NCBI GenBank assembly: GCA_036493475.1
Contig: DASXPS010000147.1
Coordinates: 1-64,000 of the forward strand
Direction: 5' to 3'
Source: Sporichthyaceae bacterium
Lineage (GTDB): Bacteria; Actinomycetota; Actinomycetes; Sporichthyales; Sporichthyaceae
Length of the DNA: 64,000 nucleotides
Position numbers and translations under genes: made by a program. The notes under the pieces were generated by a model. The model did no database searches, was not told the origin of the DNA, and worked only from the letters and a program-made list of their open reading frames with translations. This document shows positions 2,561 through 60,638 of this stretch, piece after piece (within the stretch, counting starts at the first letter, position 1; the number at the start of each line of letters is the position of its first letter).

Positions 2561-4462
2561 TCAGCTGCGGGCGGGCAACGCCGCCCGCGCCCGCGCCTCG
2601 CGCACCGCGCGCAGCAGCGAGTCCAGGTCGTAGGCCCCGGTGTGCCGGACGCCGTTGACGAAGAACGTCGGGGTGCCGGCCACGTCGGACTCATCCGCAC
2701 TGTCCACGTCCGCGGCCACCCGGTCGGCCCACTTGTGCTCGCGCAATTCCGTCACCACGCGTTCGCCGTCCAGGCCGAGGTCATCGGCGTAGCGCCGCAG
2801 GTCTTTCGGCGTCAGCGCATCCTGGTGCGTCAACAGCACCCGGTGCATCTCCCAGAACGCGCCCTGCGCGCCGGCCGCCTCGGCCGCTTCGGCGGCCAGC
2901 CGCGCCCGCGGGTGCACGTCGTCCAGCGGCAGGTGCCGCCACACGTAGCGCAGGTCGCCGATCTCGGCGAGCAGCTCGCGCACCGACTCCTCGGCCAGCC
3001 CGCAGTAGGGGCACTCGAAGTCGCCGTACTCGAGCAGGGTCACCGGGGCGTCGGCCGGCCCGCGGATGTGGTCGCGGCCGTCGTCCACCGGGTCGGCCAG
3101 GTCGAGGATCATGGTTGAGCCGCCGAACAGCCAGCGAATCCGCGTGTACTTCGGCAGCCGGCTCACCAGCACGAACCACATCCAGGTGAGCGCGGAGGAG
3201 AACACCGCGGAGCACAGGATGCCGAACTTGGCCCGGTCCAGGTCGGTGCTGTGAAAGGCCAACGAGGCGATCAGCAGCGAGACGGTGAACCCGACCCCGG
3301 TGATCGCGCCGCCGCCGCCGACCGCGCCCCAGCCGACCGGCGGACGCAGCCGACCGCGGGTCAGCTTGGTGACCAGTGCGCAGGTCGCGGTCACCCCGAC
3401 CGGCTTGCCGACCAGGTACCCGAGCAGGATGCCCAGGGTGATCGGGGACCGGAACGAGTCGGCGATGAAGCCCATGTCGAGGTGGACGCCGGCGTTGGCC
3501 AGCGCGAACAGCGGCACCAGCACGTAGGACGTCCACGGGTGGTAGAGCTGCTGCAGCCGGTCGTTGGGGGAGACCGAGGCGTTCAACGCCACCGACGCCT
3601 CGCGCAGCAGCTGCGGGGTGGGTTGCTCGCGGAAGCCGCGGAAGCTCTCGGTGGCCAGCTCCAGGTCGGTGCGTGAGGCCGGGGCGGCGTAGACCAGCAG
3701 CCCCGCGGCCAGCCCCACCACCAGCGGGTCGACGCCGGATTTGAGCATCGCCACCCAGGACGCCACGCCGAGGGCGAACACCAACAGCCCCAGCCGCAGC
3801 CGGGCGAGGGCCAGCAGCACGATCCCGGCGAAGAACCCCACGGAGATCCAGAACTTCTCCCACTGCACCTCGCCGGCGTAGACGGTGGCGATGACCAACA
3901 GTGCGAGCAGGTCGTCGACCACCACCACGGTGAGGATGAACCCGCGCAGCCGGTCCGGCACCCGCTTGCCGACCAGCGCCAGCACGCCGAGGGCGAACGC
4001 GGTGTCCGTGGACATCGCCGTGCCCCAGCCGTGCGAGCCCGCCTTTCCCGCGTTGAACGCCAGGTAGATCCCGACCGCGCCGAGCATGCCGCCGCAGCCG
4101 GCCAGCACCGGCAGCACCACCCGGTTGCGCTCCCGGAACTCGCCGAGGTCGAACTCGCGGCGCGCCTCCAGGCCGATGACCAGGAAGAAGAAGGTCATCA
4201 CCCCGGAGTTGACCCAGTCCCGCAGCTCCATCGCCACGCCGTAGTCGCTGATCCGGATGGACAGCGTCGAATGCCAAACCCGCAGGTAGGAGCCGTCGTC
4301 GACGTTCACCCAGAGCAGCGCGGCGACCGCGGCGGCGAACAGCACTACCGCCGAACTGGTCTCGGTGCCCAGGAAGCGGCGCAGCGCGGTGTCCGCCCGC
4401 GTCCGCATGGTGCGGCCCGCGGCGGCCAGGGCGTCACTCATCGGCGGCGAACTTTCGCTCAT
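2561..4462 (-). CDS. nhaA: Na+/H+ antiporter NhaA fused to a C-terminal DsbA-like thioredoxin domain
   Basis: Residues about 15-440 are a complete NhaA-type sodium/proton antiporter. The signature segments are VNSGVMTFFFLVIGLEARRE, the paired aspartates in VVVDDLLALLVIA and the helix around GFTVSLLIASLAF. Residues about 460-633 are a DsbA-like thioredoxin domain with active site C484-P-Y-C487 (FECPYC) and the cis-Pro region GTPTFFVNG. Such fusions are known in actinobacteria. The first ATG (4462) lies inside a dispersed palindromic repeat, so the first seven residues may be repeat-derived; Met8 (4441) is an alternative start. The neighbouring dipZ could redox-partner the DsbA domain (inference). 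Confidence 0.9.
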   Translation of the reverse strand: MSESSPPMSDALAAAGRTMRTRADTALRRFLGTETSSAVVLFAAAVAALLWVNVDDGSYLRVWHSTLSIRISDYGVAMELRDWVNSGVMTFFFLVIGLEARREFDLGEFRERNRVVLPVLAGCGGMLGAVGIYLAFNAGKAGSHGWGTAMSTDTAFALGVLALVGKRVPDRLRGFILTVVVVDDLLALLVIATVYAGEVQWEKFWISVGFFAGIVLLALARLRLGLLVFALGVASWVAMLKSGVDPLVVGLAAGLLVYAAPASRTDLELATESFRGFREQPTPQLLREASVALNASVSPNDRLQQLYHPWTSYVLVPLFALANAGVHLDMGFIADSFRSPITLGILLGYLVGKPVGVTATCALVTKLTRGRLRPPVGWGAVGGGGAITGVGFTVSLLIASLAFHSTDLDRAKFGILCSAVFSSALTWMWFVLVSRLPKYTRIRWLFGGSTMILDLADPVDDGRDHIRGPADAPVTLLEYGDFECPYCGLAEESVRELLAEIGDLRYVWRHLPLDDVHPRARLAAEAAEAAGAQGAFWEMHRVLLTHQDALTPKDLRRYADDLGLDGERVVTELREHKWADRVAADVDSADESDVAGTPTFFVNGVRHTGAYDLDSLLRAVREARARAALPARS

Positions 4463-4572
4463 TCATGATCTGGCGGAGTTCTCTCATACGTGGGGCGTCA
4501 CTTTCGGCGGCCGAAAGGGCCCGGCGATGACGCCTCGCGTATGAAAGTGCCCGCTGCGCTCATGAATGAGCG
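4456..4572. repeat. Dispersed palindromic element, family 1, copy A (117 bp)
   Basis: The ends are the inverted repeat CGCTCATTCATGA / TCATGAATGAGCG, with an inner GGCGTCA / TGACGCC pair and CATACG / CGTATG pairs. The reverse complement aligns with 60543-60638. The first 16 bases are identical, GGCGTCAT and TGACGCCCC are shared, and the last 35 bases differ at only about three positions. Copy B lacks about 21 bases near one end. Two copies 56 kb apart with conserved ends and variable middles indicate a mobile or REP/MITE-like family. It separates nhaA from the lon promoter and supplies the first nhaA codons. Confidence 0.85.
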
Positions 4573-31507: not shown

Positions 31508-31581
31508 GCGGGTGTAGTTCAATGGCAGAACATCAGCTTCCCAAGCTGACAGTGCGGGTTCGATTCCCGCTACCCGCTCCA
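31508..31581 (+). tRNA. tRNA-Gly (anticodon CCC)
   Basis: Complete cloverleaf: acceptor GCGGGTG / TACCCGC (one G-T pair), anticodon stem TCAGC / GCTGA with loop TTCCCAA (anticodon CCC), T-loop GGTTCGATTCC and an encoded CCA end. Its 3' 33 bp are repeated at 32602-32634. Confidence 0.96.
31549..31581 (+). repeat. Left copy of 33-bp direct repeat (3' end of tRNA-Gly; candidate attachment site)
   Basis: Covers the variable loop, T-arm, acceptor strand and CCA of the tRNA. It is identical to 32602-32634. This is the position used by tyrosine recombinases of integrative elements. Confidence 0.85.
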
Positions 31582-31720
31582 GCTGAACTGGGCTTTTTCT
31601 CTCTCCCTCATAGTCGCTGGCCATGGCTGCGAGTGGCCCTTGTAGGGCCCCTATGGACCGTGTTTTGGTCCGCGTTCGGTCCACGTCCCGGGTCGTCGGA
31701 CGAGCGCGACACTCCAACAA

Positions 31721-31750
31721 TGTATATACTGCCTCGACGTCTTGTATATA
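31721..31750 (+). promoter_or_regulatory. Direct repeats TGTATATA in the vapBC promoter of the island
   Basis: TGTATATA occurs at 31721-31728 and 31743-31750, 22 bp apart centre to centre, in the only strongly AT-rich stretch near the genes and 10 bp before the vapB start. Probable -10 region and autoregulatory binding sites. Confidence 0.5.
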
Positions 31751-31760
31751 TGGGGTGATT

Positions 31761-31967
31761 ATGGCGAAGACGTTGATCGACATCGACGAGGCTCTATTGG
31801 AGCGGGTCGCGGCGCAACTGGGGACGCGGACGAAGAAGGACACGGTGACCCGGGCGTTGGAGTTGGTGTTGCGGGCGGCCGCGTTCGACGACGCGGTGGA
31901 GTTCGCGCGGGCCGGGGGTCTGGACGACGCGAGTGACCCGGCGGTGATGAAGCAGGCATGGCGGTAG
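31761..31967 (+). CDS. VapB-type antitoxin (second TA pair)
   Basis: 68-residue antitoxin of the DUF2191/VapB type: an N-terminal strand-helix-helix (MAKTLIDIDEALLERVAAQLG, TKKDTVTRALELVLR) and an acidic C-terminal toxin-binding tail. ATG at 31761 follows GGGGTG. The last 10 nt overlap vapC, so the two are coupled. Located inside the tRNA-Gly mini-island. Confidence 0.87.
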   Translation: MAKTLIDIDEALLERVAAQLGTRTKKDTVTRALELVLRAAAFDDAVEFARAGGLDDASDPAVMKQAWR

Positions 31968-32398
31968 CCGACTACCTGCTCGACAAGAGCGCGTTGGCGC
32001 GTATCGGTGTCGAGCCGGTGGCGGGCAGGCTGCGTCCGCTGGTGGCCGCCGGTCGCACGGCGACCTGTGGGATGGTCGCGTTGGAGTTGTTGTTCTCCGC
32101 GCGCAACGGGCCCGACCACGAACGCATCCGTGACGGTTTGGGGGCTCACGAGTGGCTGGCGACCGAGGATGAGGACTTCGCTGCCGCGATCGATGTGCAG
32201 GCGCAGCTCGCGCGGACCGGGCATCACCGGGCGGTGCCGTTGCCGGACCTGCTGATCGCCGCGGTCGGCGCCCGGCACCGGGTCACCGTGCTGCACTACG
32301 ACGCTGACTTCGAGCGGATCGCCGCGGTCACCGGCCAGGCGGTGGAGTGGGTGGTGCCGCCAGGGTCGCTGGACGAGCCCGTCACCGGCACCCGATAG
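31958..32398 (+). CDS. VapC-type PIN-domain toxin (second TA pair)
   Basis: 146-residue PIN ribonuclease. Acidic residues are in ADYLLDKSALARI (Asp9), VALELLFSAR (Glu), PLPDLLIAA and YDADFERIA. It is unrelated in detail to the VapC at 11933-12379, which has the longer CRTTQQAFLRLL segment. It overlaps its antitoxin gene. As the only intact function left between the att-like repeats, it may stabilise the island by addiction (inference). Confidence 0.9.
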   Translation: MAVADYLLDKSALARIGVEPVAGRLRPLVAAGRTATCGMVALELLFSARNGPDHERIRDGLGAHEWLATEDEDFAAAIDVQAQLARTGHHRAVPLPDLLIAAVGARHRVTVLHYDADFERIAAVTGQAVEWVVPPGSLDEPVTGTR

Positions 32399-32601
32399 CA
32401 CCCCCGCCGTGCGCCGCCGGTCCGGAGTGAATGACGGCGCTGCTGGTGGGGTGGTTCTCCGACACCACGAACGGCCTTGGCGTCCTTCAGTGCCGCCTCA
32501 GCGTGCCGTGGCCCGTCCGAAGATGTGGTGGTCGTGCCGGTACCGGCGGCAGGCATTGCCTTTGAACGGGGAAATGATTGCTGGTCAGAACATCCCTCGA
32601 C

Positions 32602-32634
32602 ACAGTGCGGGTTCGATTCCCGCTACCCGCTCCA
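32602..32634 (+). repeat. Right copy of 33-bp direct repeat (tRNA-Gly 3' fragment)
   Basis: Identical to 31549-31581. Weaker similarity continues upstream (TCAGAACATC at 32585-32594 versus GCAGAACATC in the tRNA D-arm/anticodon region) but the anticodon stem is missing, so this is a non-functional tRNA fragment. It contains the stop codon and last codons of the minus-strand LLM gene. Confidence 0.85.
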
Positions 32635-46267: not shown

Positions 46268-46331
46268 CCCCGAAAGCGCAGAACGGTACGGATAGGACGC
46301 GGGATTCGCGTACGGTTCTGCGCTTTCGGGG
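46268..46331. repeat. Palindromic element family 2, copy 1 (64 bp)
   Basis: Arms CCCCGAAAGCGCAGAAC-G-GTACG and CGTAC-G-GTTCTGCGCTTTCGGGG (23 bp, one mismatch) with an 18-nt loop. The arms reappear at 47366-47428. It lies between convergent selO and the DUF559-type gene, so it could also terminate both. Confidence 0.85.
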
Positions 46332-46369
46332 AGAACGAGTGTTGCTCGCGGGGCTTGTGGTGCCCGTGC

Positions 46370-47254
46370 TCAATGAGGGATGTAGACGCCGCGGCGGGCG
46401 AAGGCGTCCCTGGTGCGCTCGATCACGGTCGCCGGTCGCTGCAATAGATCGGTCGACGTCGATTTCAGCAGGATCCAGTCGTTGCGAATTAGCCCCTCGT
46501 CCCGCTTGATGTCGAGCTCCCACTGGCGGCGCTCACGATGGCGCTCGCTCTCGTATTCGTGGGCGATGCGGATCCAGTCCCACTGAAGATCCGGTTCCGC
46601 CAGCCATTCACCGTCCTCGTCGTAGACCGCCTCGTTCGATTTCGGCTCGGGAAAGCCGGCCGACACCAATAGGAAGCGGAGTCGTGATTCCATCGGTGAC
46701 TTCGATGCGGGATCGAGCCACTTCAGGCCTTCGCGCGCGAGGACGACGCCGCGTCGCCCGCGCCCCAGACGCAGGCCGCGCTCCAACTCCTCGACGCGGC
46801 CCGGGCACAGGGCGGCCAAGCCGTCGCCGGCCTGCACCAACGCCATCAAGTCCAACCGCGAGGCAAGGTCCAGGTAGGTCCGCGCGGGCGTCGTCACCGG
46901 CAGATCGTTGCGCCACGTCGGCGGTCCGTATCCGCCGATCCGATGACCAACGACGCCCGCGATCCGGGGTTCGATCAGCTGCTGCGTGCAGAAGTGGATC
47001 AGCGGATCGGCCGGGACTGTGATGCCCAGCAGTTCGGCGGCGGTGTAGTGGCTGAAAACGGCATCGTCGGGCAACAACAGTCGCAGCGCGCGGCAGCGCT
47101 CGACCAGGTCATTCCGTGTGCTTGCGGGCACCCATAGCGACCGGGCGACCTGGCGATTGCGTCGACGGTTCTCCAACCGTCGACGGGTGAAGCCACCGGC
47201 ACGGGCTGTCGGTGTGAGCGTCGGCCCGTCCAGCGCGCGAGAAGTGTCATCCAC
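46370..47254 (-). CDS. AbiEi-like / DUF559 endonuclease-fold protein
   Basis: About 294 residues. An N-terminal winged-helix-like part ([35 protein letters not shown]) resembles AbiEi-type antitoxin heads. The C-terminal part (about 205-290) has the DUF559/Vsr-like nuclease pattern: [26 protein letters not shown] and [12 protein letters not shown]. Many actinobacterial genomes carry multicopy genes of this build with no known function. The start GTG 47254 is tentative; the open frame further upstream runs through a palindromic repeat. It is flanked on both sides by family 2 palindromes. Confidence 0.7.
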
Positions 47255-47365
47255 AGCGCGGAGGTTGGCGCAAACAATGGCCTCCGCGCAGGCGTTCTCG
47301 GCGCCTGTGGATATCGCCCGTACGTTTGCCGCCGTCCCACCGTTCCCACACGTCGCAGCACCTCT

Positions 47366-47428
47366 CCCGAAAGCGCAGAACCGTACGCCTCCGGGCGCCT
47401 TTCGACGTACCGTTCTGCGCTTTCGGGG
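47366..47428. repeat. Palindromic element family 2, copy 2 (63 bp)
   Basis: CCCGAAAGCGCAGAACCGTACG and CGTACCGTTCTGCGCTTTCGGGG enclose an 18-19-nt loop. The arm variants (G/C at one position) are swapped relative to copy 1, so it is copy 1 in inverted orientation. It ends 29 bp before the dcd start. Confidence 0.85.
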
Positions 47429-60542: not shown

Positions 60543-60638
60543 CGCTCATTCATGAGCGGGGCGTCATTTCCGTGCCCGAATTGCCCCGGTTCCATGACGC
60601 CCCGGGTATGACAGAACTCCGCCAGATCATGAATGAGC
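60543..60638. repeat. Dispersed palindromic element, family 1, copy B (96 bp)
   Basis: Same family as 4456-4572 in opposite orientation: ends CGCTCATTCATGAGCG and GATCATGAATGAGC, inner GGCGTCAT / ATGACGCC. Flanks CCGTT / AACGG extend the palindrome with one indel. It fills the hutF-hutI gap and would place a strong hairpin in the hut transcript. Confidence 0.85.

Follow-up and report, generated by a model that had tools for sequence, protein, structure and literature searches.

Two palindromic elements lie 56 kb apart in a stretch of 64,000 nucleotides (the window) of a Sporichthyaceae bacterium. An earlier note had read them as either a mobile, REP/MITE-like family or a structured RNA. In this study, we asked what these elements are and whether any gene goes with them.

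Two related palindromes in the window

Both copies, at 4456-4572 and 60543-60638, are real and have the layout given in that note. They lie in opposite orientation. Positions 4457-4500 and 60595-60638 are 93% complementary and form the best inverted pair in the whole window, and the ends opposite this pair share an identical CGCTCATTCATGAGCG. The proposed indel of about 21 bp was also confirmed, copy 2 being shorter than copy 1 by about that length. The end motif GCTCATTCATGA, allowing up to 2 mismatches, was matched 8 times; 1.98 matches were expected, and no shuffle out of 100 gave as many as 8. Predicted folding was far stronger than that of shuffled sequence (z -7.3 for copy 1 and z -6.5 for copy 2).

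Copy 1, on the + strand, is two-armed, with a left arm (4456-4480), a core (4481-4547), and a right arm (4548-4572). It is placed between nhaA (-) and lon (+) and overlaps the 5' end of the longest nhaA open reading frame. Copy 2, on the - strand, is a shortened copy in which the single arm 60543-60558 is joined directly to GGGGCGTCA, and the outer half-site on that side is missing. It lies between two amidohydrolase genes, which we read as hutF and hutI. The gene beside copy 1 (2561-4462, - strand) encodes a Na+/H+ antiporter of the NhaA type fused to a thioredoxin/DsbA-like domain.

Copies of family 1 across the genome

The end and core motifs were used to locate further copies in the 217 contigs of the own genome (G000; 4.27 Mb). 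This gave 30 apparent sites, which were reduced to 28 distinct copies. The site on contig C70 was a chance match and was dropped, and the end of contig C116 overlaps the start of C133, so that one locus had appeared twice. By rough gene calls, all copies lie between genes or run into an open reading frame only at its extreme end or start. They often follow stop codons, and many are located between convergent genes. The many intergenic copies expected of a dispersed family are thus present.

The core of family 1 consists of CTSTCATACNNNNNGCGTCA, a variable centre, and the inverted counterpart of the first block. Its length was 67 bp in 24 of the 27 aligned copies, 66 bp in one, and 68 bp in two. 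The outer arm is CGCTCATTCATGA plus GCGCAGCGAG or TCTGGCGGAG and is largely palindromic in itself. By our tally, 11 copies carry both arms, 10 the left arm alone, and 7 the right arm alone, and a side lacking the arm usually ends CCA/TGG. Centre identity had a median of 44%, but reached 96% for the unlinked pair on C59 and C194 and 89% and 85% for the next two pairs. Shared centres at unlinked loci are what copying of the whole element leaves.

Half-sites vary independently and do not covary

The strong predicted hairpins would suit a structured RNA or a riboswitch-like element. However, an Rfam scan of the window returned tRNA only and no match to the palindromes, and the copies occur in varied gene contexts. 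Across 27 copies, paired positions covaried no more than in shuffles (0.114 vs 0.129), with fewer double changes. The RNA reading offered in the earlier note therefore failed on covariation, and we give it almost no credence. The likeness of left and right half-sites within a copy was 16.93 of 20, against 17.09 for random pairing, and 1661 of 2000 shuffles scored as high. The half-sites resemble two separate sites for protein recognition, set a constant distance apart, and their independent variation favours recognition of half-sites in duplex DNA.

Related elements and their presence or absence at orthologous sites

A covariance model (R1) found related elements in G001, a genome of the same genus, and G004, from a sister genus, with a few weak matches in G003. 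The plan is common to these genomes and the letters differ: CTCAT-TC-ATGAG in G000, CTCAT-CG-ATGAG in G001, and CTCAT-GC-ATGAG in G003 and G004. Direct search with GCTCATGCATGAGC gave 28 sites in G002, 35 in G003, and 11 in G004.

G002 and G003 are about 93% identical, and most element positions are common to both, so movement of the elements is slow. The two genomes differ in how many tandem units they have, in arms replaced as blocks, and in tandem units that have been homogenised. At the locus pairs L314/L332 and L323/L338, G003 and G002 have different numbers of tandem 59-bp palindrome units, and adjacent units are nearly identical within one genome, a pattern of concerted evolution.

Empty orthologous sites, another mark of a mobile family, were also found. 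The G003 element at C11:31750 is absent from the orthologous sites of G004, where the interval is about 24 bp, and of G002. At this site G002 (L345, contig C1, about 2299550-2300179) holds a small two-gene module, reading as MazE/MazF-like (mazEF-like), and no element. Beside another shared locus, a G002 palindrome of the kind that brackets the gene at L191 is absent from G003. In G001, at the site orthologous to copy 1, lon is not next to nhaA and the stretch compared contains no element; gene order differs there too, which makes this weak evidence of absence. No target-site duplication was identified at the one usable empty site, that opposite the element at C11:31750, whose edges have diverged and are not clean. 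The comparisons among G002, G003, and G004 show gain or loss of the element and not its mechanism. Many intergenic copies, shared centres, and an empty orthologous site speak for the mobile half of the earlier proposal, which, with the RNA half set aside, is partly supported as a whole.

A nuclease-family gene lies between matching palindromes

In three genomes, a single gene of one protein family is located between two elements about 1.1-1.2 kb apart: on contig C82 of G000, C112 of G001, and C2 of G004. In all three units the element arms face outwards. The C82 unit is the putative autonomous unit of family 1, to which both window copies belong. A protein search of five genomes found close homologues of the C82 gene in each (one in G000, one with a frameshift in G001, one in G002, and two each in G003 and G004), and all were bracketed by palindromes. 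More distant paralogues were mostly bracketed as well, each by a different palindrome. The G001 gene (L151, 3095-4050, contig C112) is split over two frames and is probably a pseudogene or a draft error.

The window itself contains a complete unit of a second family at 46268-47428, between selO and dcd. It consists of a downstream palindrome (46268-46331, + strand, 64 bp), a nuclease-family gene (46370-47254, - strand), and an upstream palindrome (47365-47428, + strand, 64 bp). Family alignment and profile assign to the gene product an AbiEi-type N-terminus and a DUF559/Vsr-like C-terminus. Its start was inferred to be the GTG at 47254; the longest open reading frame extends to 47446. The family-2 palindrome occurs in 13 copies in the own genome, all equal in length.

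The window protein alone matched no Pfam family at E 0.001, and no related loci were found for it in viral contigs. Plasmid records gave only four weak matches to the family. Three of them are records filed as plasmids of Tsukamurella tyrosinosolvens (NZ_LR134451, NZ_LR134463, and NZ_LR134465; L350-L352) that are probably chromosomal contigs, since they carry housekeeping genes such as tatB, rpmG, and pdxS. Of the three nuclease-family genes on these records, two have matching elements on either side (scores 55.5 and 72.5).

Bracketing is widespread in the class

A profile built from 22 members matched 235 of 296 sampled genomes of the class and 95 of 105 genera. The two flanks of 85 distinct family genes were compared by local alignment in both orientations, against a null of 400 mismatched flank pairs (median 12, 99th percentile 19, maximum 42.5). 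Matching flanks scored above the 99th percentile of the null in 70 of these 85 genes and above its maximum in 35; the genes are not all independent, G002 and G003 being close relatives, and the sample favours high-scoring genes. By our own count, the genes above the 99th percentile comprise 22 of 23 in the own family (taxonomic) and 48 of 62 elsewhere. A bracket above that level was not seen in the remaining 15 of 85. In a related test on 39 control genes of the window, the top score was 21.5, probably from paralogous transporter genes. The bracketed units had a median length of 1189 bp (interquartile range 1114-1262), and in 44 of the 70 the matched element was itself palindromic above the 99th percentile of the null.

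Similarity between elements followed identity between proteins (Mantel r 0.51; none of 2000 permutations as high). This bears on the possibility that the palindromes are host or passive sequence, such as terminators or nucleoid sites, into or beside which the nuclease gene inserts. The frequent position of copies after stop codons and between convergent genes is as that account would have it. However, the palindrome type differs from paralogue to paralogue within a genome and co-diverges with the protein, the centres are not conserved as terminators would need, and the pairs lack covariation. We consider passive sequence an improbable explanation.

The proteins combine an AbiEi-like domain with a predicted nuclease

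Family members match AbiEi at the N-terminus and DUF559 or the Vsr-type MTES_1575 nuclease at the C-terminus. Among the 22 members, the profile of MTES_1575 was matched in 10 and that of DUF559 in 8. Previous reports describe MTES_1575 as a Vsr-type REase (PMC3710099) and place a DUF559 protein in the PD-(D/E)XK superfamily (PMC12907096). Against solved structures, the family profile matched the endonuclease-like protein 3hrl (E 1.2e-7) and, weakly, the mobile-intron Vsr-type endonuclease 3r3p (E 0.24). Conserved residues were S204, E207, D239, E250, G253, and R274, with D239 and E207 invariant and E250 nearly so; this set fits a predicted PD-(D/E)XK nuclease. A single-sequence structure model was unusable (pLDDT 39), and the nuclease fold rests on sequence profiles. 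The database annotation of a relative in Tsukamurella is AbiEi.

Alternatively, the bracketed gene could be carried along as a passenger or could regulate the palindromic sites. The main rival to a mobile unit is that the protein is a site-specific, AbiEi-like DNA-binding regulator and the palindromes are its operators or dispersed regulon sites, nothing being moved by the protein. The AbiEi-like N-terminal half agrees with this, and independent half-sites at a fixed spacing resemble binding sites. However, elements are found downstream as well as upstream of the gene, at convergent gene ends, and in all gene contexts. The conserved nuclease residues would have no role in a regulator, whole centres are common to unlinked copies, and orthologous sites can be empty. 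We therefore regard a pure regulator as unlikely, while taking it seriously.

Candidate DnaA boxes upstream of the genes

The hexamer TGTGGA/TCCACA was present in the 240-bp 5' flank of 76 of 87 family genes. In control regions it was found at 2-10%: in the 3' flank of 9/87, far away in 6/86 and 6/85, and in the coding part of 2/87. The commonest bases around this core, read on one strand, are TTGTCCACAG and include TTGTCCACA, which in Mycobacterium tuberculosis and Streptomyces coelicolor is the DnaA box of high affinity (PMC4285127). The sequences upstream of the family genes are thus candidate DnaA boxes. Among the 70 bracketed units, 61 have the box inside the unit, between the gene and the upstream element, and 31 have the exact form TT[AG]TCCACA. 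In the window unit, the DnaA-box-like TGTGGATGA (reverse complement TCATCCACA) at 47248-47256 on the - strand overlaps the inferred start of the gene, and TGTGGATAT (reverse complement ATATCCACA) at 47306-47314 on the + strand lies between the upstream palindrome and the gene.

These boxes weigh on how the elements might spread. Homing-like spread would involve duplex cutting at a target and copying of the element by break repair, without a single-strand step linked to replication. The weak match to 3r3p agrees with it, and arm blocks swapped between orthologous copies and homogenised tandem units are what gene conversion would do. Against it, the intergenic positions are diverse, no target sequence common to them was found, and the candidate DnaA boxes suggest a tie to replication. 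Spread of this kind seems to us improbable.

A proposed REPtron-like element and its relation to known systems

We observed bracketing of the gene, co-divergence of element and gene, predicted DnaA boxes, near-identical unlinked intergenic copies, and presence or absence at orthologous sites. We consider it probable that the units are REPtron-like selfish or mobile elements built on a Vsr-type nuclease, with the palindromes as their non-autonomous members. The autonomous unit, of about 1.2 kb, would be one gene for a two-domain protein between a matching pair of palindromic elements. The protein would consist of an AbiEi-like winged-helix N-terminus and a DUF559/Vsr-type PD-(D/E)XK nuclease C-terminus. 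Its N-terminal domain may bind both inverted half-sites of the cognate palindrome family, and the nuclease may nick or cut at these palindromes, either as hairpin single strands or as duplex DNA. Repair or replication would then place copies of the element in new intergenic sites, and DnaA may tie expression or timing to replication. The C82 unit would serve family 1, including the two copies noted in the window, and the unit at 46268-47428 would go with the 13-copy family 2.

REPtrons and REPINs (PMC3733652, PMC3116915) likewise have one gene between palindromic repeats and a separate repeat family for each gene, and REPINs are dispersed, non-autonomous inverted pairs at a fixed distance with a variable spacer in intergenic positions. 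Inverted ends, fixed length, and the repeat-bracketed gene could thus suggest ordinary REP/REPIN elements moved by a Y1 (RAYT) transposase. However, Y1 (HUH, RAYT-type; PF01797) was found in 0 of 5 genomes, with control genomes positive, and the GTAG tag is absent, the family-1 ends reading CGCTCATTCATGA / TCATGAATGAGCG. The compensatory changes of REPINs were not found in family 1, where half-sites vary independently. A RAYT-driven system is accordingly most implausible. The protein here is a predicted Vsr/DUF559-type nuclease with an AbiEi-like domain and not a HUH Y1 transposase, and, unlike REPtrons, the units have predicted DnaA boxes inside. Since they lack the Y1 transposase, the GTAG tag, and covariation, the units are not REPtrons, but they look like them and may work like them.

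Other systems resemble the units in part. CGTC-tagged REPs (PMC3733652) are also palindromic intergenic repeats without a RAYT, and the family-1 core contains GCGTCA. However, those repeats are reported to be 20-40 bp long and to have no associated transposase gene. The element here measures 117 bp and is linked to a nuclease gene, and at the corresponding place the motif is missing from the sister genomes and from family 2. As in MITEs, short non-autonomous copies with inverted ends accompany a longer gene-carrying unit with the same ends, here the C82 unit and its counterparts in G001 and G004. Unlike MITEs, the units have no known transposase domain. At the one usable empty site, with its diverged edges, no target-site duplication was seen. 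The C-terminal domain belongs by profile to the fold family of DUF559 and MTES_1575 Vsr-type nucleases, for which the accessible parts of PMC3710099 and PMC12907096 describe no link to dispersed palindromes; there, a Caulobacter Vsr-like protein is discussed with cytosine methylation. The N-terminal half resembles the AbiEi antitoxin of AbiE systems, but the protein has the extra nuclease domain. At the window locus, no AbiEii toxin gene stands beside the unit, whose neighbours are selO (SelO) and dcd (dCTP deaminase).

Searches of open-licence full-text papers turned up no account of palindromes associated with DUF559, Vsr, or AbiEi proteins, which is not proof of novelty. The bracketed genes suggest a little-noticed class of tiny mobile elements. 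We put at about even chances the broader proposal of class-wide actinobacterial mobile units of about 1.2 kb, each with a Vsr/DUF559-type nuclease and its own palindrome family and with DnaA-coupled mobility, REPtron-like and evolved independently of HUH transposases. Where annotated, these proteins are called AbiEi antitoxin or hypothetical protein. If each family protein serves its own palindromes, a large share of actinobacterial intergenic palindromes gains an owner, and many proteins with such annotations gain a testable function. The REP/RAYT way of life would then have been reached a second time with an unrelated enzyme, tied to replication by DnaA boxes, and biochemistry would have at hand nucleases already matched to their cognate DNA sites.

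A further observation was made elsewhere in the window (31508-32634). A tRNA-Gly gene has an exact second copy of its last 33 bases (31549-31581) at 32602-32634, 1053 bp further along, which resembles the duplicated attachment site that integration of a small element would leave.
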